37,745 nucleotides of DNA from Lachnospiraceae bacterium (GTDB taxonomy: Bacteria; Bacillota; Clostridia; Lachnospirales; Lachnospiraceae): contig JAFSXN010000010.1 in assembly GCA_017444015.1 (NCBI GenBank), positions 1 to 37,745 of the forward strand, written 5' to 3'. Shown in pieces: positions 6,526 to 37,745 of this stretch. Within the stretch, counting starts at the first letter, position 1, and every line of letters begins with the position of its first letter. A program made the translations under genes and the position numbers. The notes beneath the pieces were generated by a model, which did not search any database, had not been told where the DNA came from, and saw only the letters and a list, made by a program, of their open reading frames with translations.

Positions 6526-6703
6526 TCGGAACCAAAACCCGATATCCGGAATGCTCCGCACTTCGTGCTCTCACGCTCCTCCCACATTCCGCTCTTTCGT
6601 GGCGCTTACGCCCCACTTCGCGCTCCATGTGGGGCGGGTCATAAAGTCTCTCGCCCACTTTCGTGCAAGCACGAAGTGGTCTCGGACTTTTGACCCTGAT
6701 ATC
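6526..6703. repeat. hairpin-rich intergenic element flanked by imperfect direct repeats
   Basis: The spacer between two membrane-protein genes holds an 8-bp perfect stem (CGCCCCAC 6609-6616 with GTGGGGCG 6629-6636) and a 10-bp stem with one bulge (CACTT-CGTGC 6656-6666 with GCACG-AAGTG 6669-6678). A weaker GGAATG...CATTCC pairing and several CACTTCG/CGAAGTG copies are also present. A similar block of about 21 bases (TCGGA...ACCC..GATATC) stands at 6526-6546 and 6682-6703, on both sides of the hairpins. No T-run follows the stems, so these are not standard terminators. Likely a repetitive extragenic or MITE-like element. Confidence 0.6.
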
Positions 6704-6706
6704 ATA

Positions 6707-7855: not shown

Positions 7856-9641
7856 TTTTTACGATCTTATACTCATCATATCCGCACTTTGTATCGAGAT
7901 ACTCCGCGTCATATCCGCCGCCGTAATGCTCGTTCAGATAGGTCAGCTTCTCCCTGATAAAGATATTATCCGCGACGATAACGTTCTCATCCGCTCCCGC
8001 AAGCGTCCGGAAAGGGTTTTCATAACCGAAACGGTTCACGACTCCGTCGGTGATCGGCGAATTCACATACCAGCTCGAGATAAAGACCAGATTGTCAAGG
8101 CTTCCCTCCGGACAGGGCCTTAGAACATCATATTTCCAGGCATTCTGAAAGGTAAAGGAATCGATCACAAACAGCTTGTCCTTATGCTCCGCCGTATAGG
8201 CAATATATCCGTTATAGTCATTCTCCGTCCGCTTATGGCTTTCGTAGTCCAGCCGATCCTTCATCAGAACCGGGCAGACGGAGATCGCAATCAGAAAGGC
8301 TGCAAGTAAGAGCTCTCCCGTATAGGAGGGGGCCGTCCTTTCCTCAGACCCTGTTTCAGAATCAAAGGTCCGGCAGCTGCTGTCTTGCTCCGATGCAGTT
8401 ACCGCGAATTCATAGATAAAGCAGAACAGCATCGCGATCAGCGTCGCGTATACGATCCGATGGGTCCAGCGGCCGCTGTACTGATAATAGGTAAGGATAG
8501 CAAAAAGCGCGGCCAGGCTGAGCGCCAGATACAGAAGGGCAGTTTTATCCAGAGGCTTATGAGCCCGGCAAACCGCCAGCAAGACCAGCAGAAAGAAAAA
8601 GACCGCCGCTCCCAGAAAAACCGGGTTCATGATCAGGATATCGTCATAAATATGCTTCCCATAGGCCTTGAGCATCGTCAGATCAAAGGCTCTGGGCTCT
8701 GCCGCCGCAAGGATCGCCTTCATCTTCTCGACCGTAAGGATCGTATTGTCCGAAAACTGCCAGGTCATATAGATCAGAGCGTCGTTTTCGGAGATATCCC
8801 ATACCTCCGACAGCCAGTCCGCCACCTGCTCATTGTTGTAGTCCATCAGGTCATAGCGGTAATCGATCAGTTTCGTCCTGGTCTCGCTGTAATCCATATA
8901 GGCAGACCAGACCGGATCATTCCCGTAGAGCTTCGCATTATAAATAAGGAAGCAAAGGATAATGACAAAGGCCGACGCAAAGGCACGGACATACAAAAAA
9001 AGTACCCGGAAAAAACGCGAGGACCCACCGAAGGCAGCCTCCTCCCCTTCCTGCGCTGACTCTTTCCGAAGCTTTCTGTAAAATTCCGAAAGAAACAGCA
9101 CAAAGGCAAAGATACTCGCCAAGAAGAAGGAATTATCCCGAAGCAGCGCCCCGAAGATCAGGAGGATACTTCCAAAAATGAGATAGCCCCTGCTTTTTTT
9201 CCGTACATAATGCAGGATCCCGATATATCCCGCTATGCTCGCTGCAACCGCCGTCTTCGTATACTGAAGCGAGACGTAGAGCTCAAAAAACGAGGCCAGA
9301 ACCGTAAGGAAAGCGATCAGCCTTCCGTTTTTGTAATCGCAGAGGACCCTTGTAATCAGGCAGAGCGCCGCAAAGCTCAGGATATACTGTAACAGACAGT
9401 ACCACCGAAATCCGGGCAGCAGCCCATACAAAAGCCGCAGCAGACACCCATAGGCGTAATTGATATACATTAAATGCGGCTCTCTCTGTCCGAAAGCCCC
9501 CTCCGCGATCATCGCCAGGTAGGTATCATCGTTTTCCTCAAAGTACGGCTGAAACAGCGTAAAGGATAAAATAAGCGCGCAGAGATTTACCACAAGAGTA
9601 TAAACCGCCGGTTTTTTCAGCCATTCAAGGACCCGCTTCAT
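7839..9641 (-). CDS. large polytopic membrane protein, GT-C-like glycosyltransferase candidate
   Basis: A 600-residue protein with about ten to twelve hydrophobic helices and a soluble C-terminal tail of about 130 residues. The first outside loop follows the first helix directly and carries an acidic motif at residues 36-39 (ENDD), followed by TYLAMIAEG. This is the position of the catalytic Asp/Glu in GT-C-fold membrane glycosyltransferases. No exact family is recognised, and sugar and acceptor are unknown. The ATG overlaps the stop codon of the YfhO-type gene (ATGA), and its own end overlaps the next gene by 17 bases, so these genes are translated as a coupled block. Alternative: a polymerase- or ligase-like protein of surface polysaccharide assembly. 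Confidence 0.78.
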   Translation of the reverse strand: MKRVLEWLKKPAVYTLVVNLCALILSFTLFQPYFEENDDTYLAMIAEGAFGQREPHLMYINYAYGCLLRLLYGLLPGFRWYCLLQYILSFAALCLITRVLCDYKNGRLIAFLTVLASFFELYVSLQYTKTAVAASIAGYIGILHYVRKKSRGYLIFGSILLIFGALLRDNSFFLASIFAFVLFLSEFYRKLRKESAQEGEEAAFGGSSRFFRVLFLYVRAFASAFVIILCFLIYNAKLYGNDPVWSAYMDYSETRTKLIDYRYDLMDYNNEQVADWLSEVWDISENDALIYMTWQFSDNTILTVEKMKAILAAAEPRAFDLTMLKAYGKHIYDDILIMNPVFLGAAVFFFLLVLLAVCRAHKPLDKTALLYLALSLAALFAILTYYQYSGRWTHRIVYATLIAMLFCFIYEFAVTASEQDSSCRTFDSETGSEERTAPSYTGELLLAAFLIAISVCPVLMKDRLDYESHKRTENDYNGYIAYTAEHKDKLFVIDSFTFQNAWKYDVLRPCPEGSLDNLVFISSWYVNSPITDGVVNRFGYENPFRTLAGADENVIVADNIFIREKLTYLNEHYGGGYDAEYLDTKCGYDEYKIVKNDNSR

Positions 9642-25198: not shown

Positions 25199-25429
25199 AT
25201 GAGAGAAATGGAATTTAAAATGGAGCGGCAGGGGCTGCTTACGGTGGGAGAAAAAATCACAATAAGCGAAGGAGTCCTGCCGACCAGCTTTTATTATACG
25301 ATCAATCCCTCCCTCGCCATGTCGGGAAACTATACTCAGAGAGAACGCCTGAAAAGCAGAGAGGGCGTTGTAAAAAGCATCGAAGAGCGTCCGCAGGGCT
25401 ATTATGTGATTGCGGAGTTTAATGAATAA
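25199..25429 (+). CDS. small protein of unknown function
   Basis: A 76-residue soluble protein preceded by AAGGAAG six bases before the ATG. It has no signal peptide or membrane helix. Predicted mostly beta, with a charged middle (TQRERLKSREGVVKSIEERP) and a final YYVIAEFNE; the layout suggests a small beta-barrel of SH3-like or OB-like type, which is only a guess. It follows the GH13 gene by 105 bases on the same strand. I recognise no family. Good initiation signals and balanced composition support it as real. Confidence 0.65.
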   Translation: MREMEFKMERQGLLTVGEKITISEGVLPTSFYYTINPSLAMSGNYTQRERLKSREGVVKSIEERPQGYYVIAEFNE

Positions 25430-25527
25430 TAATTGATCCGTTTAAAATTAAATTGATTCGAGGATTTCTGTCGCGCTCATTAAATGAAGCTTTGCCGATA
25501 TTGCCGGATTATTATCTGAAACCTCTA

Positions 25528-26817
25528 CTATTGATTCTTTCGGAATTGAGAAAGCGCGCTTCTGATTTCTTCCTCCGGCGCGGCAATGCTACCCTGGATC
25601 ATTTCCTTCGAGCCGCCGCATTTTGCCGAAAACCGGTTCTTTAACAGCTCTGAAGCTTCCCTGGCATCTCCGCAGTTATAGGAGAGGATGAAACGATAGC
25701 CATTTTGCTCACTCCCGACAAAAACCGCGTTGATCCCCGTATGCTTCTCATTCAGCCGGTTTACGATCTTACGCTGGGCATTTGGATCTAGCTCATCGCC
25801 GATAAACAGGAGCTGAGAATCCAGCGTCTTAAGCTTCAGCTCCCAAAGCTCTTCCAGCGTTTCCTTGTATTTCAGCTTATAATCATTTCCTTCCTTCACC
25901 AGCTTTTCTACCGATTCCTTCAGCCGGTCCGTACCTGTCGTAAGCTTCAGCGCCAGCTCGTCCGCAATATCCTGAAGCTCTGAGATATAGGCAAAGGCAC
26001 GTTTTCCCGCAAGAATCGTCAGCCTCGTCCCGCCCTTGTAATTAATAAAGCGAACGACCTTGATCAGTCCGACCTCCCCGGTATACTTTACGTGCGGCGC
26101 GCAGCAGGCGCAGACATCGATCCCCGGGATCGTCACCAGACGAATATCGTCTGATAGCTCCTTCTTACTGCGGTATTCGATATCCTTCAACTCCTCGGGC
26201 CTATAGTACCGGCAGGTCACGGGGATGTTCTGATAAACGGCTGCGTTGGCTTTCTCCTCTAACTCCCTGATATCGTCTTTTTTGAGCTGCTTTGAGGTAT
26301 CAAGCGTCACGATATGCTCCGAAAGATGAAAGCCGACATTTTCCGAGTCCCAGTATTTATGAAGAAGCCCGGACAAAATATGCTCTCCTGTATGATTCTG
26401 CATATTGGAAAAGCGCTTTGCAAAGTCGATCCTGCCGCTCACTCTGTCCCCGGGGTGAAACATAAGGGGCAAAGCCTCGGATCCAGGTGAGCTTTCCGCT
26501 GCTTCTGCCAAAAGCTCCTGAACAGGGGTTTGAAGGGCTGCATCCGTGGCAGATTGGTGCGCAAATTTTGTCTGCCAATCTATTTCATGATAAATAACGC
26601 TGTTATCTTCAATCACGTGAGAGACAATGAATTCCTCTGTGCTGTTCTCATGCCGCAATATCCCGGTATCGGAGGACTGTCCTCCCTCCTCCGGAAAGAA
26701 CATCGTCCGGTCCAATTCAACCAAAAGCACCGTACCGCCCACTTTCTCAACGGATAATACGGTCGCGGCAAATTCAGTTTCGTATGGAGTTTCGTCAAAT
26801 AAGCGGATGGTTTTCAT
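25528..26817 (-). CDS. alanyl-tRNA editing protein (AlaX type with C-terminal DHHA1-like domain)
   Basis: Free-standing editing enzyme that hydrolyses Ser-tRNA(Ala) or Gly-tRNA(Ala), protecting translation from mischarging. The N-terminal part resembles the AlaRS beta-barrel (TMFFPEEGGQSSDTG). The editing zinc site is present as H142xxxH146 (NHTGEHILSGLLH) and CACCAPH near 234-240. A coiled segment near 290-330 leads into a C-terminal DHHA1-like domain (KCGGSKEMIQGSI). The 429 residues fit the long AlaX class. It begins 14 bases after the AAA-ATPase gene, and no ribosome-binding site precedes its only sensible ATG, so translation may be coupled to that gene. Functional link to the neighbour unlikely. 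Confidence 0.92.
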   Translation of the reverse strand: MKTIRLFDETPYETEFAATVLSVEKVGGTVLLVELDRTMFFPEEGGQSSDTGILRHENSTEEFIVSHVIEDNSVIYHEIDWQTKFAHQSATDAALQTPVQELLAEAAESSPGSEALPLMFHPGDRVSGRIDFAKRFSNMQNHTGEHILSGLLHKYWDSENVGFHLSEHIVTLDTSKQLKKDDIRELEEKANAAVYQNIPVTCRYYRPEELKDIEYRSKKELSDDIRLVTIPGIDVCACCAPHVKYTGEVGLIKVVRFINYKGGTRLTILAGKRAFAYISELQDIADELALKLTTGTDRLKESVEKLVKEGNDYKLKYKETLEELWELKLKTLDSQLLFIGDELDPNAQRKIVNRLNEKHTGINAVFVGSEQNGYRFILSYNCGDAREASELLKNRFSAKCGGSKEMIQGSIAAPEEEIRSALSQFRKNQ

Positions 26818-26831
26818 GTGATTTCAGATTT

Positions 26832-28412
26832 TTAGCGTACAGATGATACTCTCTCAATAATACATTCATGCTTTTTCTCAGCACTGTCCTTATCATAAGC
26901 TATTCCTACCAGCAGAAGCTCTCCGCCGTAGTCCTTTATTGACGCGGGATAATTTCTTTTCTTTATCTGGGCTATCGCTCCTTCTGCGGACTCATTCCAT
27001 TTAAGCTCCACCAAGAGGGCAGGAACATCCTTGCCTTTTTTAGGAAAGTAAACTATATCAGCATAACCGGTTCCCCCCGAAAGCTCTTCAAACTGGATAT
27101 ATAGATCCTTATATGCGAAATAAGCAAGCTTGATTACTGCTCTGAGCGATTGTTCATTATTATAATGCAACGGTCCGTATTCCTCGGAATGGATTTTCTC
27201 GATCTGTCTGGCTACAGCCTCAGATCTTAGGCAGATTGTATCCTCTATCAGTCTGTCACTTTCTTTAACGCGCTCCAGAGTATCCTTATGCGACGTTTTT
27301 CTTATGCTCCTGGCAAATTCCAGCCTGATCTCCTCGTTCGGTATTCTTGCCGTCCCTGTCAGATTATTATATGACAGATATCCAAAATGGATAAGGAGAG
27401 TTAGAACATCATCCATAGAATATACGGATCTGACATCATTATTAAAGCCATCCGTGTCAACAGAAATCTCTATCCCCGCCATAAGTCTCTCAACTGCTTT
27501 CGACAAACCGTCATAATCCATATTTACGTATTGCAGCAAGCTGTCTGCCGCGGAGGACATTTTCCAGTAAGACTTAAAATCATTCTTTTTTACAGCACTC
27601 ATCACAGAATTGGGATTATATACGGAACCTATCTCCGGCATAGAGTATCCGTCATACCATTTTTTCATTTCTGAAAATACCGCGCTGTTTTCCTCACAGA
27701 GCGTCCTCACCTCCTCTTCGGTAAAACCGACAAATTCAGCAAGCTCCCCGGCATCCAACATATTGTATTCCTGGAATTCTGAAACAGCAGACTGGGAGCC
27801 ATCCTTTTTTATAGGAAGAATTCCTGTCATATAGGCTGCCGCAAATATCCTGTCCGTTTTGACACTACTTTTAAATAAAGTTCTTAAAAATTCAAGAAAA
27901 GCCTTTTGCTCCTCTGCTGCAGCGGAACTGTCACGGATGATAGCATCCCATTCATCAATGACAGCAATAAACTTTCTTCCTGTCTTATGAACAGCATTTA
28001 CAAGCATATCCGTCAGAGCCTCTTCCTTTATATCCGGGCAAAGCTCAGTGATCTCTTCCGATAATTTCCTTTTTATATAGGCAACAGCATCTTTACATGA
28101 TGAATTTCCTATGATGTCTGTCATATCAAGACATATAACATTATATTTGTTTAAATGCTCAATATAGCTTGCATCCCGGGCAATTCTAAAATCCTTGAAT
28201 AATTCAGAGGAATCACAGGTTCTGTCATAATAGGCGCAGAGCATCTGGGCAGCAAAGGACTTGCCAAATCGCCTTGGTCGACTTATACAAAACAGCTTCT
28301 CCTTTGTATCGATCTTCTTATTTACCTCGGAGATCAGCCCCGTTTTATCCACATATTTACTTCTGCGAATCGTCGCAAAACCTTCATTACCGGGGTTTAT
28401 ATAGCTTCCCAT
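26832..28412 (-). CDS. AAA-ATPase with PD-(D/E)XK nuclease-like C-terminal domain
   Basis: A 526-residue protein of the AAA-ATPase_like/PDDEXK_9 type (PF09820 plus PF08011), very common in gut Bacteroidetes and Clostridia, often in many copies; its function is not established. Residues 1-25 carry the family N-terminus (NPGNEGFATIRRSKYVDKT). The P-loop is CISRPRRFGKS with K51, and Walker B is AVIDEWDAI near residue 155. The C-terminal nuclease-like core shows ADIVYF, VELKW and a following QI, matching the D, ExK and Q positions. GAGG lies 7 bases before the ATG. It sits 63 bases after the surface-protein gene, but a promoter and palindrome in that gap suggest separate control. Suggested roles (defence, mobile-element biology) are unproven. 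Confidence 0.9.
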   Translation of the reverse strand: MGSYINPGNEGFATIRRSKYVDKTGLISEVNKKIDTKEKLFCISRPRRFGKSFAAQMLCAYYDRTCDSSELFKDFRIARDASYIEHLNKYNVICLDMTDIIGNSSCKDAVAYIKRKLSEEITELCPDIKEEALTDMLVNAVHKTGRKFIAVIDEWDAIIRDSSAAAEEQKAFLEFLRTLFKSSVKTDRIFAAAYMTGILPIKKDGSQSAVSEFQEYNMLDAGELAEFVGFTEEEVRTLCEENSAVFSEMKKWYDGYSMPEIGSVYNPNSVMSAVKKNDFKSYWKMSSAADSLLQYVNMDYDGLSKAVERLMAGIEISVDTDGFNNDVRSVYSMDDVLTLLIHFGYLSYNNLTGTARIPNEEIRLEFARSIRKTSHKDTLERVKESDRLIEDTICLRSEAVARQIEKIHSEEYGPLHYNNEQSLRAVIKLAYFAYKDLYIQFEELSGGTGYADIVYFPKKGKDVPALLVELKWNESAEGAIAQIKKRNYPASIKDYGGELLLVGIAYDKDSAEKKHECIIERVSSVR

Positions 28413-28424
28413 AAAACAACCTCA

Positions 28425-28437
28425 TATGTCGGACATA
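28425..28437. promoter_or_regulatory. 13-bp palindrome just upstream of the AAA-ATPase gene (operator candidate)
   Basis: TATGTC-G-GACATA, a perfect 6+6 dyad around one central base, lies 12 bases upstream of the start codon and just downstream of a predicted -10 box. It would cover the transcription start, as repressor sites often do. Confidence 0.45.
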
Positions 28438-28439
28438 AT

Positions 28440-28468
28440 ACTATAAAGCAACCTCTAACAGATTGTAA
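28440..28468 (-). promoter_or_regulatory. possible promoter of the AAA-ATPase/AlaX pair
   Basis: TTACAA (28468-28463), a 17-base spacer and TATAGT (28445-28440) on the minus strand: spacing ideal, -35 moderate, -10 one mismatch. It lies in the short gap after the upstream surface-protein gene, with a palindrome directly after it. Confidence 0.45.
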
Positions 28469-28475
28469 ATGCAAA

Positions 28476-31400
28476 TCAGGGAGATACTATGACCTTGCAG
28501 CTGTTATGCTTGCCTCCCGTCTCCGTATATATTACTGTTTCCCCCACGCCGATTCCGGTTATCACCCCGTTGTCATCGACCATAGCGATCTCTTCTTTCT
28601 CAGATTTCCAGTCTACTGTCTTTATTTTCGTGTTCGACAGCGTAATCTTCTTCTTTTTACCTGTCTTCAGCTTGACCTGCTGAATTCTAAGTACCGGTTC
28701 CTTGACCTCAACATAGCATCTATAATCTACGCCGTCAATATTTGCAGTTATGACCGCCTCCCCACATTCCTTCGCCTCAAATTCTGCCTTTTTATTATAA
28801 AGATCACCTGTCTCTTTCAAGGTGAGCTTACCCGGGGTACAACTCCAGTCTGCTTCCTGCTTGATATTAGATAAGGACAACTTTAGCATACCTCCCGTAA
28901 GCAGTGAAACCTTGGACTTGTTCAATTTAGGAACTGTAACTTTGATGCTGTACTGATACTTTGCAGCCTGACTTCCTTCCCCATAGAATGCTGTAATCCT
29001 TACATTTCCGGTTTTCTTTCCCACTGCCATCCAGGTCCCGGTATCGTTCTGATATACGCTCACCATCTTCTCATTTGAACTGGTCCAACCAGTCGGCTCT
29101 TCAACCCCTGTTATATTCTCATTTAGCTGATATACTGCTCCTACCCTGAGAAGTTCAACCTGTTTTTGCTTTATTTCCGGCTTAAATAATTCAAACTCGA
29201 CTCCTGTATCACTTTTTTCTGTCCAACCCTTCCCCTCTTTTTCCAGTCCGGTCACCGTAACCGTTGCTGCCTTTTTTGCAGTCATCACACCCTTGGCGCT
29301 AACGACTGCCGCTCCTTTTATTTCTGAAGACACGGCGTATTTTTGAAAAGTCGTTCCAAACAACTCCTCAAATACTGTATTTAAATCTGTCTTCTGGTTC
29401 AATGCAAGGTAAAGTTTATCGTCACAGGACACAAAAACCGTACAATACGCAGTATATCCACCATCGACCGTCTTTGCCTCTATTACAGCCTTCCCTTTTC
29501 TGATCGCCCTTACCTTTCCATTCTCAATTTCCACGATATCCGGCTGAAGGCTTTTCCATATAATATCCTTGACTTCTGCTGTTTCGGGGGTGATCACAGC
29601 CTCAATCTCTGCAGTAGCCCCGATTTCAAGAGACAACCTGTTTGTTTTGAGCGTAATCCCTTTAACCGAATAATCGTCAGCGATGCTCTTTTTCGCATGG
29701 GTCAATTGAAAACTGACCTCTGAGAACCCTTTCTTCCCACTTTTCAATGTATCCGACATAAGGTCACTGTAAAAATCCAGAAAGTCGTAAGTATTGTCAT
29801 AGCCATTGTCCGTTGCGGAGTGAACCGACTCATACCCGGAAACTCCCATTGAACTGGAATTCGTCTCAATATCATGGAGCATTTCATGGATCAATACCGC
29901 AATACTCGAATCAAATAATCTTCCTTTATAGCTTAGGGTCTGCTCCCCGGCATGAAGACTTCGGGCCACATTGATTATCACCCGATAGATACGTTGACCC
30001 TTATATGTATAATAGTCGCCTCCCAGACCCTGCCAGCCACCTTCATAATAACTGCCATTTAAAGGGTGTTTCAGCAAAGGGGCATAGATAACAACCAGAT
30101 CATAGTTATTATTCTCAAGACATCTGTCAAAATCAATATCTTTTCCGGGACCAACCGTCAAGTTAGCGCTTAATCCTGTAACCGAAGTAACCGGAGTATC
30201 AATTATCTCAACATCAACATTACTGATCTTCATCCTCCCCTCCGACATATACTGTACAGTATACGGAAGGATCCTTGTAACTCTGTCCTCAATTATCTGA
30301 ACATCGCTATCGTTGAACGTATCATAATAATTATTCGCTGCATCAGAAATATTCGTATATATCAAAGTCAAAACGTTCCAATAATTATCCGTGACTATTT
30401 CATTTTGCGGATAAGCCCTCACCAAGCAAGTATCCTGCAGGGTGCCGTCCGCAGAAACGGCAGTTATCGTTACCTCACCTGGTTTAAGCGCTCTTGCTCT
30501 TCCGCTCGTTTCATTTATCCGGACCGTTTCAGGATCAGAACTCTTCCAGTGTACTGTTTTTCTTTCGCCGTTTTCTGTAAGATCTGTTGCTTTCAGATTT
30601 CTCGATTCACCGACAGTCATCGTGAAATCTTCGTTATGGATATGGAAGCCAAAATCTTTGACCAGGCAGGATGCTGCAGTATTTTGTGTAAGTGCACTGA
30701 CAGCATTACCTTTTGCATCAGAAAACACAGACGGAAGCTTGATAACCGCTGAGCCGGAGATTACAGGCGCGGTTATATGATCCAGTAAATTGCAACCGGA
30801 GAGCATTCCTTCTGAATTGATATTCCCGGTGATTATGATGCTGCCTAAATCCAGATTTGCCAGCGACGAGCATGCGGCAAACATATATGAAGCATTTTCT
30901 ACCTTTGAAATACTCTTGCTTCCAAGCCTCACTTCCTTCAGATCAAGGCATCCACTGAACATCTGACTAAAATCTCTTATATTTGACAACTCAAGGGAAC
31001 TCAGATCCATAGATTCGATTCCGCTGCTGCCGAACAGCCAACTAACATTCTCTACTCTTGACGTATCCAAAGCACTTATATCGACACTCTTTAAAAGCGG
31101 GCAATTATAAAACACCCCGTTCAAGTTGACTACGGAAGAAGTATCAAGCCCTGAAATATCTACACTCTTAAGCGAGGTACAGTTATTAAACAGAAACGAT
31201 ATATTACCAGCGGAAACTCCCTTTTCCACCTGAAAACTCTCCGTTTTTTCAGGGACAAAGTAATCCCCATATGTTCCTGCAAAATCTATCTTCGTCTTAT
31301 AAGCGATACCATTAATGCTAATGGAAGCCGGAACTACTATATTCACACTGTCCCCTTCGTACTTCAACAGCTTGATATAATCTCCGGATATATTATATTG

Positions 31401-31601
31401 CCACCCATTCCAGTAGTCGGTATCGACCCCTCCTAGTGGCTCTTCACCGGCATACTCCCCGCTGGATGGATACGTAATGATTTCTGCTAAATCATCCGTG
31501 ATTCCCGTCAGCGCATAAACATCGCTTTGAAAGAAAAAGAACGAGAATACTATAAAGATACATACTATATGCAAGAAATCTCTAAGCTTTTTCATCGCCA
31601 T
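28476..31601 (-). CDS. secreted BspA-like/Ig-like surface protein with HExxH metallopeptidase motif
   Basis: A 1041-residue exported protein. A signal peptide covers about 1-31. Residues about 95-280 contain BspA/DUF285-like repeats (LFNNCTSLKSVDIS, MFSGCLDLKEVRLG). An Ig-like Big_2 segment lies near 310-390. A globular region of about 400-650 contains LIHEMLHDIE, with H572, E573 and H576 forming HExxH; H594 or E591 could be the third zinc ligand. Another Big_2 domain (about 650-725) and a C-terminal run of Ig-like units (727-1041) end the protein. That last part is homologous to the end of the upstream giant protein. No LPXTG or final membrane helix. The first ATG has GGAGG 6 bases upstream; a second ATG two codons on is possible. 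It begins 10 bases after the giant gene, so it shares the c-di-GMP-controlled transcript. Protease activity is inferred from the motif alone. Confidence 0.85.
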   Translation of the reverse strand: MAMKKLRDFLHIVCIFIVFSFFFFQSDVYALTGITDDLAEIITYPSSGEYAGEEPLGGVDTDYWNGWQYNISGDYIKLLKYEGDSVNIVVPASISINGIAYKTKIDFAGTYGDYFVPEKTESFQVEKGVSAGNISFLFNNCTSLKSVDISGLDTSSVVNLNGVFYNCPLLKSVDISALDTSRVENVSWLFGSSGIESMDLSSLELSNIRDFSQMFSGCLDLKEVRLGSKSISKVENASYMFAACSSLANLDLGSIIITGNINSEGMLSGCNLLDHITAPVISGSAVIKLPSVFSDAKGNAVSALTQNTAASCLVKDFGFHIHNEDFTMTVGESRNLKATDLTENGERKTVHWKSSDPETVRINETSGRARALKPGEVTITAVSADGTLQDTCLVRAYPQNEIVTDNYWNVLTLIYTNISDAANNYYDTFNDSDVQIIEDRVTRILPYTVQYMSEGRMKISNVDVEIIDTPVTSVTGLSANLTVGPGKDIDFDRCLENNNYDLVVIYAPLLKHPLNGSYYEGGWQGLGGDYYTYKGQRIYRVIINVARSLHAGEQTLSYKGRLFDSSIAVLIHEMLHDIETNSSSMGVSGYESVHSATDNGYDNTYDFLDFYSDLMSDTLKSGKKGFSEVSFQLTHAKKSIADDYSVKGITLKTNRLSLEIGATAEIEAVITPETAEVKDIIWKSLQPDIVEIENGKVRAIRKGKAVIEAKTVDGGYTAYCTVFVSCDDKLYLALNQKTDLNTVFEELFGTTFQKYAVSSEIKGAAVVSAKGVMTAKKAATVTVTGLEKEGKGWTEKSDTGVEFELFKPEIKQKQVELLRVGAVYQLNENITGVEEPTGWTSSNEKMVSVYQNDTGTWMAVGKKTGNVRITAFYGEGSQAAKYQYSIKVTVPKLNKSKVSLLTGGMLKLSLSNIKQEADWSCTPGKLTLKETGDLYNKKAEFEAKECGEAVITANIDGVDYRCYVEVKEPVLRIQQVKLKTGKKKKITLSNTKIKTVDWKSEKEEIAMVDDNGVITGIGVGETVIYTETGGKHNSCKVIVSP

Positions 31602-31611
31602 CTACCCCCTC

Positions 31612-34600
31612 CTACGGCTTCACGGTAACCTGACAGCTGTTATAAACGCCGCCGGTATTTGTATAGATCGTCACTGTTCCGGGCAGGATACCATAAACCA
31701 GACCGGTAGAATCAACAACTGCGATCCCTTCATTCTCAGATTTCCAATCCACCGATTTAAGACTCATATTTTTCATACCTACTGTGATTTTACGCCCCAC
31801 CCTGACGGTATACTCGCTTTTTTTCATTTCCGGCTTCTTTACACTGACCTGACAGGTATAACTCACGCCATCCAAGACAGCGCTTATCATGGCTTCTCCG
31901 TAACCCGTCGCCGTGATAACCCCATTCTCCACAACAGCAACCGATTCATTCGAGCTTCGCCAGGTCGGTGCCAGCTTCGTATTGTTCAGCTTTACTTTCT
32001 GCTGCTTCCCCGTGATCATCGTCAGGCTCTTTTTGCTGATGACTGGGATATTTACTTTAACTGTAAATGAATATTTGGCAGCGTTTTTCCCTTCTCCATA
32101 TACTGCTGTTATTTTTGTTGAGCCCTTACCAACCGTAGAAATAAGACCATTTTTTTCGTCAACTAACGCGACCTTTTTATTTGAAGAAGTCCATAGTGTA
32201 GGAGTTATTGTACAATTTTCAATATTATCAATTCCAAAGATACTTTTTCCTGTTTTTGTCGCATTTATAGTTTTATTGATAAAAACTGGCTTTTCAACCT
32301 TTATTTTTATAGCATTTACATTATCAACAACCCATTTCTTTCCTGATTTTATATATCCAGTAATAGTAATCTCTCCTGGTTTCTTTGCTGTAACCAACCC
32401 TTTGTTTGTTATAACAGCACTATTTTTTGGATTTATTGCATACTTTCCATAGGATTGATCAAAATATGGCGTTATATCTATTTTTTGATTTACAACAATA
32501 TAAGATATAAATTGCGTTTTTATTTCTCCGGATTCATCACTGTCTACAATATTGAATAATACTTTCCTATCTCCATAATAATAATTATTTGGTCCCTCTA
32601 TACTTGAAATAGTAATAACAGCAATACCGACATTCACGTTGTTATCATATTTTAAAACATAATTAATATCTTCCTGTAATAACCCCACATCGAAACAGGA
32701 TAGTGAAATTTGTGGCTTGATTTCTTGGCCTGTATACTCATATTCATTATTTATAGGACTTACATTGACTAAATGATTATTTAAATTACAAACAATATCA
32801 TAAGATGCTGATTTACTACCATAGTAATTATTAATACCTTCCACAGATATTGTTTTTCTTCCAGGGTGAGAATAATCTAAATCTGGATAAGAAATAATAT
32901 AGTCCGATCCATAATTTAAAATACTTCCATCTTTACCACGAACAACAACGTTTTCAATTTTAACTTTGTTTATAGAAGCCGAATATTCTAATCGAGAGGT
33001 TAATATAGTTATACTAGCATCCGTCAAATCATGGCTTTCATCTTTTATATCATCTTCATAGCCGATAAGAATATTCCAGCACGGGTTAGGATCAAATTCA
33101 TAATTACTCAAATTGTGGCTGATTTGTAATTCATTAAAATAATTACCTCTATGGTCCCCGTAATCAAAAATTATTGTTTGTTTATTTTCTCCACTTAGAA
33201 TTACACGATTACTTCCCGAAAATGGATTACACGTATAACCAAAATGTGAGTAATCAATTTTACAATTCCCTTTCACCTCTAAAATTCCGGCACTTAGATT
33301 CCATATAGGCGAATGCTGCGGACAAATAATATTTATATTCTCACCAACACAAAAATAATCCTCCTTATTATTCATAGTAACACAAGCATGGGCCGTTGGG
33401 TTTTGATATTCTAATGCATCATAGTTTTTATTTACTTTAAACTGTCCCTCATTAAATAATATCTGACCATAGTAATGATTTACATTTCCATTAATATCAA
33501 TAATACCCTTATTGATATTTATATCACTTCTAAATATAACATCTCCGTTAACTTTGAATTTTCCGCTATTTATATCAACATCGCCTATTAGCACGATATC
33601 ACCTGTTACTTCTACAATATGTTTATTCAGATCAAGTACGCCATTCCCTGTATGTTTTCCATTCATACTTATATTATTCGGAGACCAAATTTTTCCACCT
33701 TTACTTTTGAAAACCAAATCACTATCTAATCGGGTTAAACCAATCCCTTCGATTATAATCTTATCATTATCGAATAATACTGTACCTAGATAACTTTTAC
33801 AATACCATGTCGTATATTCATTAGATACACTAAGTAAGCTGATAATTTGTTCATCTGATCCATTAAAAACAGTTTTATGATTAACGCCGCAATGAATCCC
33901 TCCTCCATATGCATTGCCTGTTTCAATCGCTGTATCTGGATCAGCATCCGATGTTTCAATTAGACTCCCCTCAAAATAGGTGGTTCCAGCTTCCCAACAT
34001 AAAGAATTTCGATTTGACGTAATGTATGTATTACCATGTACACGAAAGATGTCATTTTCATTTGCCATTTCAAAATTACCCACATAATCATTATTATTTA
34101 AATAATCTTCATCAATATATAACTCCCCTTTATTTATAAATATTCTACCGTCGGAATGATGTAAATCGCCATAAACGCCTACATAACCAGAATTAATATC
34201 TAAGTCACAAACATGCCCATTGAAATCTGTTGTAAATACATTTCCATATATATTTAATTCACCATGATTTACATTGACAGAACTTGTTAATGTCACGTCT
34301 CCAATTAAATCAAGTTTTTTCCCCCCTAGATCAATTCCTCTTATAATCGAATTATCAACCAAGCACTGAGCATCTGACTTTAATGATTTAAAAGCCAACT
34401 TATGACAAAGTGCATTATTATTCTTTATTTCAAGTGTACCAAAAGAGGCAATTTTTTCGAATGTTTCAGCCAAATTTACCTCTTGATAGTTTGATCCGTC
34501 TAGTACTGTCAGATGCTCAATGTTTGATTTAGTACTAACATCCTCCAAGCTAACATTTCCTTTTAAAATAAGCTGTCCACTTAATAGTTCCGCATAGGAA

Positions 34601-37287
34601 AACGATGCATTCCCATCAATGCAAATTATATTTTCTGGAGATGTCATATATAACTTCCCGCCAAAATTTCCGGAAATATTGGCAGAGCCGTTTTTGATAA
34701 AACTATATGAATATTTCTTTGTAAAATCATCGACATCACCATGAAAATTTGCTTTTCCATTATCTAAATCAATTTTTAGTTGTTTTATATTTCCATCTAC
34801 ATTTAGATTATAACCATTCAGGTTCTCTATTGTTAAAGATATGTCATTTGTGCAGTTAATACTGATATCAGACAACATTTTTTTGGCCGAAAATTTATTA
34901 TTGACTGTTACCGTTTCTTTTAATAGTTTTACAGTACCGAAATCACCATTAATAATATGGTTATTCCCCTCCATAGTCACAATACAGTTTTCACTAATTG
35001 AGTTTCCGCCAAACCACTCCGGGACGGCCCCATAGAGATAGATATTACCATTAAGATAAACATCCTTCGGTTTACTATAACTATACCCTTCAGATGTATT
35101 TATTATTGATTCTGCATCTCCATGTACAATAAAAGTGTCTCTATTATCTTTCATAGATATAGAACAATCCTCATCCCACATTACATTAACATCATTAAAT
35201 TGTTTAGTATAATTGCCTTTTATATCAAAGATACCGTTTTCAAAGAAAATTGTACCTCTAATATGTTCAACATCCCCTGTTACTTTTAATTCTCCTCCAT
35301 TAAGTTTAACATTTCCTTGTATTACCCCATTGCCGCCAATTCGAAGCATATATCCGTTCAAATCTAATGTGCATCGAGGATTAATTATTAAATCCCCCAA
35401 AGTGTCAAAATCCCCCTCAAGGATAACATCACTATCTATTATATAATCAACATAATGAGAAGTTACTTCAGTGTTTTCCTCTAGTTTATCTTGATAATCT
35501 AACACCGTAATGTTTGGTATAATGATTTTTTCTGGATCCTCGGCTATTACTTCATCATAATCATCAATAGGAACCACTATTACATCATCTGCATGCAGTT
35601 CTTCATTATAATCCACAAAACCATTATAGGCTATTTCTCCTGCATTATTAAAATAGTCTTTGATTATTTTTTGTATAAACTTACAATCAGCATTGTACTT
35701 ATCGTATTCTTCTTTATCTAATGCTTTGTATATTACATTAACCATTCCAGATTTATAAACTGCATCATTAAATTTTATAGCATAATCAATACCGACTTGA
35801 TGTAGTCTGCCCAAGACAATCATCGAAGTAGAATATTTTCTAGCACTGGTAATATCCATATTTTTTTCAAAATCTTTTTTATATTCACGTATTTGTGATT
35901 TTAAAGCATCTTCAAAGTTATATAACGTCTTGAGCGTATAATAAGTATCGATTATTTTATCAGTCCCAAAGAATAAATTGCTACCGAATTTCCCTATCCC
36001 TTGACCCGCTTGAATCATCAAACCTACCGAACCACAAATAGAAGTAACCCCTGTCCAAGCTTCTTTAAAAATCAATTTTGCAATTTCTCCTGTTGCTGAT
36101 TCGCTAGAGAATAATAAAGCTAATTGATCAGAATTTAAACTTCCTGAGCATATGGTGGAGAATTCTCTAAGTGCATATCTTAATGCTAAATTATCCGTAT
36201 GATCACTCATATCATAAAGAAGAATAGCCACCTCTTCCGACATCTCTGACAGAGCTTGAGCTTTTGAGAATTTTTCCATAACCTCTTGAGCCGTTGTGCA
36301 TGTACTAATAAAATCTCCAATATTATCAATTCTTTTTAAAACACTTGAAAAAGTATCAATTCTCGTCAAATGTTTTCCTAGTAGTTCAATATTATCAGGC
36401 TCAACAACCAATTCTTTAGTAATGGATGAATCCAATTCGGCAAGCTTTTTCCATCCGGATATACCAAGTTTTTTATATGTATTATTTATTTTATCAAATA
36501 TATTTGACGTGTCAGATTGATAGAGTACATCAAATAATATCGCTTGGCATGCTGCAACCTCTTTTTGAGAATACTTTGCTTCACTAGATAAATCAAAAGT
36601 TAGCGTTCTATATGCTCCTAGCTGGTTTTGAAAAGAACTATCCTCATTAAGATTTTCGACAAACTGACGATATATACCTTTATACCTGTTCATATAATAG
36701 TCATCGCCTTGGTCAAAATAATTTGCTAGCCACAATTCAAAATCTGATGCCGCAATATCATCATCTATTCCCTTGGAATATGCTAAAATCAGATCATCAT
36801 AAATATTATGGTTAGGCGATGATGTTCTACTGTTTAATACAATATTTGCTGAATCCTCAAATAATACATCTTCATCCACAAAAACATAGATACTTGGAAT
36901 ATCAAATAGATTAACAGATTCAAGGAGGAAGACATCCTCTTTAAAAATGGGATTGAACATATATTCACCCAAACACTCTTCGGCATAATCCGAAATACAT
37001 TCCCACTCTACTTCTACACTAATCATCTTATCCTTTTCGTCTAAAGCGTTGATTGTTTTGGGAAATCTAGTAATTAATTCATTTAATGGTATCTTTTTTT
37101 CTATATTAATATGGCTGCTCTCCCAACTTAATTCAACAAATGCTGAGACAGTTTTACCGACTTCCTCATGATTTGTTGATCCTATTTCAGTCGAATTGAT
37201 GTTTTGTGCATTAGAAGCATAAATACATCTAGGCTGAAATAATACTAACATTATAATAGATGCAAGGATGATAATACTCTTTTTCAC
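31612..37287 (-). CDS. giant secreted beta-repeat surface protein (adhesin-like)
   Basis: A 1891-residue exported protein, probably an adhesin or matrix protein. I chose the GTG start at 37287: AAGGAGG stands 7 bases upstream and a signal peptide begins there (VKKSIIILAS, cut near IYAS). An in-frame ATG at 37332 is too early and lies in the terminator. Residues about 40-600 are mixed, largely helical and unrecognised. About 605-1415 consist of short beta motifs (GELKVTGDV, GELNIYGNV, GKFKVNGDV), suggesting a beta-helix. About 1425-1585 hold two Ig-like repeats of the YxGxxxKP...DYxxxY...GxNNYYG type. The last 306 residues are Big_2-like units shared with the next gene. No LPXTG. Most of the gene is near 30% G+C, but the last 430 bases are much richer. 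Expression is governed by the c-di-GMP-I riboswitch upstream. Confidence 0.88.
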   Translation of the reverse strand: MKKSIIILASIIMLVLFQPRCIYASNAQNINSTEIGSTNHEEVGKTVSAFVELSWESSHINIEKKIPLNELITRFPKTINALDEKDKMISVEVEWECISDYAEECLGEYMFNPIFKEDVFLLESVNLFDIPSIYVFVDEDVLFEDSANIVLNSRTSSPNHNIYDDLILAYSKGIDDDIAASDFELWLANYFDQGDDYYMNRYKGIYRQFVENLNEDSSFQNQLGAYRTLTFDLSSEAKYSQKEVAACQAILFDVLYQSDTSNIFDKINNTYKKLGISGWKKLAELDSSITKELVVEPDNIELLGKHLTRIDTFSSVLKRIDNIGDFISTCTTAQEVMEKFSKAQALSEMSEEVAILLYDMSDHTDNLALRYALREFSTICSGSLNSDQLALLFSSESATGEIAKLIFKEAWTGVTSICGSVGLMIQAGQGIGKFGSNLFFGTDKIIDTYYTLKTLYNFEDALKSQIREYKKDFEKNMDITSARKYSTSMIVLGRLHQVGIDYAIKFNDAVYKSGMVNVIYKALDKEEYDKYNADCKFIQKIIKDYFNNAGEIAYNGFVDYNEELHADDVIVVPIDDYDEVIAEDPEKIIIPNITVLDYQDKLEENTEVTSHYVDYIIDSDVILEGDFDTLGDLIINPRCTLDLNGYMLRIGGNGVIQGNVKLNGGELKVTGDVEHIRGTIFFENGIFDIKGNYTKQFNDVNVMWDEDCSISMKDNRDTFIVHGDAESIINTSEGYSYSKPKDVYLNGNIYLYGAVPEWFGGNSISENCIVTMEGNNHIINGDFGTVKLLKETVTVNNKFSAKKMLSDISINCTNDISLTIENLNGYNLNVDGNIKQLKIDLDNGKANFHGDVDDFTKKYSYSFIKNGSANISGNFGGKLYMTSPENIICIDGNASFSYAELLSGQLILKGNVSLEDVSTKSNIEHLTVLDGSNYQEVNLAETFEKIASFGTLEIKNNNALCHKLAFKSLKSDAQCLVDNSIIRGIDLGGKKLDLIGDVTLTSSVNVNHGELNIYGNVFTTDFNGHVCDLDINSGYVGVYGDLHHSDGRIFINKGELYIDEDYLNNNDYVGNFEMANENDIFRVHGNTYITSNRNSLCWEAGTTYFEGSLIETSDADPDTAIETGNAYGGGIHCGVNHKTVFNGSDEQIISLLSVSNEYTTWYCKSYLGTVLFDNDKIIIEGIGLTRLDSDLVFKSKGGKIWSPNNISMNGKHTGNGVLDLNKHIVEVTGDIVLIGDVDINSGKFKVNGDVIFRSDININKGIIDINGNVNHYYGQILFNEGQFKVNKNYDALEYQNPTAHACVTMNNKEDYFCVGENINIICPQHSPIWNLSAGILEVKGNCKIDYSHFGYTCNPFSGSNRVILSGENKQTIIFDYGDHRGNYFNELQISHNLSNYEFDPNPCWNILIGYEDDIKDESHDLTDASITILTSRLEYSASINKVKIENVVVRGKDGSILNYGSDYIISYPDLDYSHPGRKTISVEGINNYYGSKSASYDIVCNLNNHLVNVSPINNEYEYTGQEIKPQISLSCFDVGLLQEDINYVLKYDNNVNVGIAVITISSIEGPNNYYYGDRKVLFNIVDSDESGEIKTQFISYIVVNQKIDITPYFDQSYGKYAINPKNSAVITNKGLVTAKKPGEITITGYIKSGKKWVVDNVNAIKIKVEKPVFINKTINATKTGKSIFGIDNIENCTITPTLWTSSNKKVALVDEKNGLISTVGKGSTKITAVYGEGKNAAKYSFTVKVNIPVISKKSLTMITGKQQKVKLNNTKLAPTWRSSNESVAVVENGVITATGYGEAMISAVLDGVSYTCQVSVKKPEMKKSEYTVRVGRKITVGMKNMSLKSVDWKSENEGIAVVDSTGLVYGILPGTVTIYTNTGGVYNSCQVTVKP

Positions 37288-37330
37288 TTTGCTTCCTCCT
37301 TCGAATATTATTATTAATATCCTATTTATC

Positions 37331-37370
37331 AAAAAATCAGACGTGAGCCATCATAACAGCCTAGTCTGAT
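37331..37370 (-). terminator. riboswitch-associated intrinsic terminator
   Basis: On the minus strand ATCAGAC (37370-37364) pairs with GTCTGAT (37342-37336), followed at once by TTTTTT (37336-37331). It lies between the c-di-GMP aptamer and the ribosome-binding site of the giant surface-protein gene. This is the position of the expression platform in transcription-controlling riboswitches. Confidence 0.85.
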
Positions 37371-37373
37371 CAT

Positions 37374-37458
37374 TAAAATACCTTGCAACTGGCAACCATT
37401 TTAAAGGCCCTATAGCTTTGCGTCACAGGATTTCCCCTGCTTTGCTGATATAAAGGAA
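37374..37458 (-). promoter_or_regulatory. c-di-GMP-I riboswitch (GEMM motif) aptamer
   Basis: The minus-strand RNA carries the conserved GEMM pieces in order: AGCAAAGCAGG, a GGAAA loop closing CAGG/CCTG, then TGACGCAAAGC (about 37424-37414), GGGCCT, AATGGTTGCCAG and a 3' strand GGTAT that can pair with ATATC at the 5' side (P1). GACGCAAAGC with GGxxGCCAG is diagnostic of the class I c-di-GMP riboswitch (Rfam GEMM_RNA_motif). A consensus promoter lies just upstream and a terminator just downstream, so it should set transcription of the two surface-protein genes according to c-di-GMP. Whether ligand turns them on or off cannot be read from the sequence. Confidence 0.92.
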
Positions 37459-37485
37459 ACGGCTTTATTCGTTTCACTTATGATT

Positions 37486-37514
37486 ATTGTATACAAGCGT
37501 AAGCACCGTGTCAA
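37486..37514 (-). promoter_or_regulatory. sigma-A-type promoter of the riboswitch-controlled surface-protein operon
   Basis: TTGACA (37514-37509), a 17-base spacer and TACAAT (37491-37486) on the minus strand: perfect -35, one mismatch in -10, ideal spacing. Transcription would begin near 37479, about 20 bases before the aptamer, giving a leader of about 190 bases. Confidence 0.82.
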
Positions 37515-37613
37515 GAATCCATTCCCCTTCCAATAACGGAATAAAGCGGAGGAATTCTGTACACTTTCTTATTTCCATGACATTTCCAGCTTTCTCCCTG
37601 TATTTGTGCATAT

Positions 37614-37704
37614 TGCGACCGCAAACGGTCGCATTTGCGGAGCTTAAAGACCGCGGAGCGGTCTACATCGGTCGTGAGGCGAAGCCGAACGGTCGAAAGC
37701 GATA
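37614..37704. repeat. hairpin cluster built on GACCG/CGGTC
   Basis: Two perfect stems stand close together: TGCGACCG (37614-37621) with CGGTCGCA (37626-37633), loop CAAA; and AGACCGC (37648-37654) with GCGGTCT (37658-37664), loop GGA. Two more CGGTC copies follow at 37669 and 37690, making six GACCG/CGGTC copies within about 80 bases. No T-run follows, so it is not a standard terminator. I see no gene between 37515 and the window end; short open frames here only translate this element. Confidence 0.55.
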
Positions 37705-37745
37705 AAAGCAACTTATAAAGTATCTCAAGCTACCTCATAATGAAA

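Follow-up and report, generated by a model that had tools for sequence, protein, structure and literature searches.

The class I cyclic di-GMP riboswitches (GEMM-I) best comparable to the control region described here come from Clostridioides difficile and Geobacter. The Cd1-type c-di-GMP-I riboswitch of the C. difficile flagellar genes controls transcription through a separate terminator downstream of the aptamer, and in this OFF switch the terminator is compatible with the bound aptamer (PMC9262584). The C. difficile class I switches that were tested worked as OFF switches, and one class I gene was raised by c-di-GMP in RNA-seq, as reported in PMC6200980. The same source describes the Cdi-1-2 (putative adhesin) and Cdi-1-12 (metalloprotease ZmpI) loci, both lowered by c-di-GMP (PMC6200980). 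ON switches of the class include Bc3-5 of Bacillus thuringiensis (PMC4759541) and the cGAMP-responsive pilM (PMC9262584); the terminator of Bc4 uses the ligand-contacting C and bases of P1 and P3 (PMC4759541), and that of pilM likewise draws on aptamer bases (PMC9262584). PMC8835794 describes the cGAMP riboswitch as a relative of the c-di-GMP riboswitch and notes naturally occurring pocket variation.

The window analysed here is a stretch of 37,745 nucleotides, the whole of one contig in a 3.77-Mb Lachnospiraceae assembly (94.1% complete, 5.5% contaminated). Its control region has the aptamer fold and core, the separate downstream terminator and the transcriptional mode of the Cd1 type but differs from it in carrying A at the G20 position, in preceding an operon of large secreted-type proteins and in having no antiterminator that is convincing by folding. 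The Geobacter cGAMP riboswitch (GEMM-Ib) likewise has A at the pocket position, which we take to correspond to A20 of the window, and keeps the C92 equivalent. Unlike Geobacter, however, the genome of the window yielded no Hypr GGDEF, a surface-type protein takes the place of cytochromes or pilus genes as the target, and RF01051 matches number at least one, compared with the 17 GEMM-I switches given for G. sulfurreducens in PMC8835794. Cdi-1-2 and Cdi-1-12 are likewise class I switches that stand before surface or secreted proteins. Our preferred reading, with a probability of roughly 55%, is that of an A20-subtype GEMM-I riboswitch with its own sigma-70-type promoter that would exert c-di-GMP-responsive OFF control over a two-gene operon by premature termination.

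Architecture of the control region

The sequence contains a promoter, an aptamer, a separate terminator, a ribosome-binding site and two adjacent genes. Checked letter by letter on the minus strand from 37514 to 37285, the order is promoter, leader hairpin, GEMM-I aptamer, terminator, Shine-Dalgarno sequence and GTG (Table 1), the span between -35 box and start codon being 230 bases, in agreement with the first-pass annotation, which had placed these parts, apart from the leader hairpin, in the right order within about 230 bases. The promoter that it proposed was borne out: it matches 11 of 12 consensus bases, and among 1000 dinucleotide shuffles of 37281..37745 there were 10 with a match as good. 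Its GEMM aptamer, for which it had suggested a comparison with Rfam, matched the RF01051 covariance model over its full length (1-87 of 87) with 51.6 bits and an E value of 2e-7, against a gathering score of 35 bits, and the core is intact, with GCAAA, GACGCAAAG and a GNRA-capped P2 all present. The terminator with six Ts was also recovered and provides an expression platform between aptamer and gene; the stretch 37369..37331 folds with -11.3 kcal/mol, a value equalled by 3 of 200 shuffles. The ribosome-binding site and GTG are present as described but lie outside the interval 37331..37514 to which the region had been assigned, the remaining parts being inside it. Together, the ordered parts, the RF01051 score and the shuffle controls for promoter and terminator indicate that the control region is real and beyond chance. 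Judged from these sequence features, the element is a GEMM-I riboswitch with a transcription terminator.

Table 1. Positions in the window of the control region, the operon and further features named in the text
Feature	Position	Strand	Basis or remarks
Sigma-70-type promoter TTGACA-17-TACAAT	37486..37514	-	11/12 consensus bases, 17-base spacer
Short 5' leader hairpin, directly 5' of aptamer	37456..37475	-	
GEMM-I (c-di-GMP-I) aptamer; GAAA tetraloop on P2, core GACGCAAAG, 3' strand GCCAGUUGC	37381..37456	-	RF01051
Pocket base A, Vc2 G20 position (model position 11)	37446	-	RF01051 alignment, sequence
Pocket base C, Vc2 C92 position, kept	37385	-	RF01051 alignment, sequence
Intrinsic terminator, six Us; 7-bp lower stem AUCAGAC/GUCUGAU	37331..37370	-	Folding, sequence
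Shine-Dalgarno AGGAGG, 7 bases 5' of GTG	37295..37300	-	Sequence
GTG start codon	37287..37285	-	Sequence
1891-aa protein	31612..37287	-	Signal-peptide-like N-terminus (by eye), long repeat region, C-terminal Big_2 domains
C-terminal Big_2 part of 1891-aa protein	31615..32502	-	About 296 residues
1041-aa surface-type protein	28476..31601	-	PARCEL/DUF285 repeats, HEMLH motif, C-terminal Big_2 module
HEMLH motif of 1041-aa protein	29874..29888	-	Residue 572
Clostridiales-1 RNA	6540..6704	-	RF01699, 103.3 bits

The c-di-GMP-II riboswitch (RF01786) had no match in the window at the gathering score and none in the whole genome, where a positive control was equally silent. A plus-strand regular-expression match at window position 8921 was rejected as chance, Rfam having no match there. 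Elsewhere in the window, a Clostridiales-1 RNA extends over the GTG (6658) that was called mechanically as the start of a 397-aa open reading frame, so that the true start of this frame is probably further in.

The pocket base and its distribution

The first-pass annotation had called the element a c-di-GMP-I riboswitch. The class was upheld by the RF01051 match, but the named ligand was not settled by it, the annotation having missed the A at pocket position 37446. We take model position 11 to be Vc2 G20 and the pocket base at 37385 to be Vc2 C92. The window aptamer was aligned with 25 relatives, picked from 30 fetched loci out of 82 RF01051 matches; G occupies the G20 position in 24 of the 26 aptamers and A only in the window and one relative (L026); the five fetched loci outside the alignment (L030, L036, L037, L044 and L045) all have G. 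The aptamer therefore lacks the GEMM-Ia hallmark, G at position 20, and has that of GEMM-Ib, A at position 20 with C92 kept. On this ground A20 would count against an unchanged c-di-GMP selectivity, and the Rfam label c-di-GMP-I appears doubtful for this aptamer given its pocket. The U before GCC (GGUUGCC) was considered as a second pocket change and dropped, this position being variable in the alignment.

RF01051 is present in 42 of 99 genomes searched, including that of the window, and in 12 of the 36 other genomes of the same genus. An exact scan of named genomes from a species-level collection found A20 aptamers in no fewer than 120 stretches, mostly from Firmicutes as read from the 80 titles listed, with some from elsewhere. 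Of 125 A20 matches from these stretches, 123 have at least five of the six P2 positions paired, compared with about 3% of cases by chance (our own arithmetic, assuming equal base frequencies), which indicates that they are genuine aptamers. Among 114 distinct matches, the 3' strand could be located in 79, and 77 of these retain C92. Aptamers with A20 are common elsewhere, and the switch in the window belongs to an already known kind.

Folding, sign of control and competing readings

The terminator begins 9 bases past the aptamer match and shares no bases with it, which by analogy with the described switches suggests OFF-switch topology. Terminators were found in 31 of 33 surveyed loci (all except L029 and L041); they are separate from the aptamer, as in the window, in 26 and touch or overlap it in 5, according to a crude finder that did not pick the obvious hairpins of L066 and L068. 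When the growing chain was folded without ligand, the 5' arm of the terminator paired upstream at about 0.5 between 122 and 142 nt, its partner in the minimum free energy structure being partly the aptamer P3 strand. With the aptamer forced, upstream pairing of the arm dropped from 0.51 (122 nt) to 0.07 (142 nt), and at 142 nt downstream pairing was 0.64, versus 0.02 unforced; full-length equilibrium folding predicted the terminator in both states. The bound-minus-free difference was unusual at one of four lengths, where 8 of 250 permuted hairpins reached it, and ordinary at the other three, where 75, 86 and 136 of 250 did so. Upstream pairing of the arm was no stronger than in shuffles at five lengths (145 to 436 of 500 reached it), the duplex between the 3' strand of the window aptamer and the terminator arm gave p = 0.33, and duplex energies at 10 short-P3 loci showed no significant excess indicative of a conserved antiterminator (Stouffer p 0.14; best single locus L071, p = 0.03), the value for all loci being not computable owing to rows with p = 1. 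No antiterminator convincingly beats shuffled controls. The sign of control, which the first-pass annotation had left open, is narrowed only a little by these results, with a separate terminator of OFF topology on one side and a statistically unconvincing antiterminator on the other.

The pocket points to cGAMP or mixed sensing, whereas the genome points to c-di-GMP. A GEMM-Ib-like riboswitch for 3',3'-cyclic AMP-GMP, in which A20 and C92 would read one adenine and one guanine, accords with both pocket bases of the window and with the retention of C92 among A20 aptamers elsewhere, and GEMM-I with the G20A change is given as the sensing element in a biosensor for cyclic AMP-GMP (PMC11352751) and as a crystal structure with cGAMP bound (PMC6274999). 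We nevertheless regard it as unlikely in view of the enzymes encoded. Enzymes of the Hypr GGDEF type produce cGAMP and have serine in place of the aspartate of cyclases (PMC6456294). The search for GGDEF and EAL genes that the first-pass annotation had proposed returned 49 rows for GGDEF and 20 for EAL, with 19 of the EAL rows exceeding the cut-off. The 48 aligned GGDEF domains, which cover all 49 rows as two rows are halves of one domain, have 39 D, 7 N, 1 E, one domain without the residue and no S, although this column is possibly off in some degenerate domains; the Hypr serine was thus seen in 0 of 47 readable domains of this approximately 94% complete genome. SMODS, the sole CD-NTase family covered, also had 0 matches in the genome, with a positive control. 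Three domains of the genome (L019, L195 and L199) have an intact GGDEF motif with N replacing the guanine-reading D. The RF01051 search of the same genome, in which 150 of 321 first-look candidates were scored, gave at least one match, the one in the window. We consider c-di-GMP the likelier ligand because neither of the two kinds of cGAMP synthase sought, Hypr GGDEF and SMODS, was found. It seems improbable that the switch reads cGAMP, alone or alongside c-di-GMP, with no recognisable enzyme of these two kinds in the bacterium. If it did, this lineage would have cGAMP signalling that relies on an unrecognised synthase and is coupled to a surface-protein operon, and many Firmicutes A20 aptamers would become candidates for the same ligand.

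Induction of adhesins is the usual logic of c-di-GMP, and an ON switch, in which the ligand would suppress the terminator and induce the surface proteins, would fit it as well as the precedents of Bc3-5 (PMC4759541) and pilM (PMC9262584). These ON switches, however, put aptamer bases into the terminator and the terminator found in the window does not use them, which makes this reading rather unlikely; we infer an OFF switch over an ON switch at odds of about two to one. The aptamer might also be decaying and sense nothing, with the gene merely attenuated by the terminator. Its score ranks 65th of the 82 RF01051 matches, its pocket base is unlike that of the short-P3 relatives (L053, L058 and L066-L071), and the terminator is predicted in both states. 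We hold such decay to be decidedly unlikely, as the remaining core motifs are intact and A20 aptamers recur elsewhere in at least 125 matches, nearly all with a well-paired P2.

In the preferred reading of a c-di-GMP-responsive OFF switch, transcription from the sigma-70-type promoter would make a leader with the A20 GEMM-I aptamer, and ligand binding would fold the P3 and junction strands and keep them off the terminator's 5' arm as the polymerase moves through. The terminator would then form and neither of the large secreted-type proteins would be made. The physiological ligand would be c-di-GMP, because the genome encodes many GGDEF and EAL proteins and neither kind of cGAMP synthase sought was found; affinity or selectivity would probably be altered because of A20. 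As the target consists of two large secreted-type proteins with related C-termini, the switch would link the signal directly to the cell surface.

The operon and GEMM-I elements of the genus

The link to an operon of secreted-type proteins drawn by the first-pass annotation agrees with the gene arrangement. The 1041-aa gene begins 10 bases past the stop of the 1891-aa gene and has its own AGGAGG-like site, and a scan of 25300..31800 found no minus-strand terminator-like site at the junction. The larger protein matches Pfam Big_2 (1.1e-18), the repeats of the smaller match TIGR02167 (PARCEL, 1.1e-13) and DUF285 (3e-15), and the Big_2 C-termini of the two are related, with 39% identity over 296 residues. 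Both proteins look secreted or surface-type from their predicted sequences, and neither has an LPxTG motif. The HEMLH motif of the smaller protein, which we take to resemble a zinc metallopeptidase motif, suggests a metallopeptidase domain in a PARCEL-repeat protein; no Pfam family matched this region at E 0.001 among the best stretches listed. Other large proteins of the genome share this related C-terminal Big_2 part with the two operon proteins, and it may serve surface retention.

No relatives of the 1891-aa protein were found in named genomes, and among the matches listed for 37 genomes of the genus, its own included, no other genome had a full-length match. The matches listed within the genus fall in the C-terminal Big_2 part or in segments of the repeats; some portion of the protein is matched in 25 of the 36 other genomes, and many of the listed matches concern the Big_2 part. 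Short aptamers like that of the window, but with G20, stand upstream of a terminator, recognised by eye, at eight loci (L053, L058 and L066-L071), and several of the genes downstream look secreted, also by eye. At L058 the first open reading frame of at least 80 aa encodes 1453 aa and has a match to the C-terminal portion of the 1891-aa protein.

Eleven of the 37 genomes of the genus contain a standalone RNA gene organised around a GEMM-I aptamer (L052, L054-L057, L059-L063 and L065), measuring 334 to 545 bases from aptamer start to terminator. Genomes with this element have it instead of the short switch, with the exception of one that has both (G018). The 3' half of the aptamer follows 100 to 315 bases past the aptamer start, leaving a variable P3 insert, and the element contains a 37-base block that is identical in all 11 copies and ends in a terminator with a C-rich loop. 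Ten of the eleven have a promoter-like TTGAC-TATAAT stretch on the 5' side, the eleventh being cut by a contig end, and a further promoter-like stretch lies 3' of the element. A second match in one genome (G036), at a contig end (L064), was excluded from the alignment. By eye, nine loci lie before a branched-chain amino acid transporter operon and two before rnr-like and smpB-like genes, followed by tmRNA. With up to 3 mismatches allowed, the 37-base block had no match in any of 397 genomes sampled from 334 genera of the family, the window's own genome and one other of the genus being among them. With Rfam at E up to 5, the L059 copy gave the aptamer and a weak RT-6 match of 16.3 bits, below the gathering score of 46.7, and RNAalifold of the 3' part gave 38 pairs, 4 of them with compensatory changes, which is little. 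The element is possibly a trans-acting RNA gated by a cyclic dinucleotide, or a sink like merRNA of Bdellovibrio, the nearest precedent seen, which is given as 445 nt in PMC3627812.
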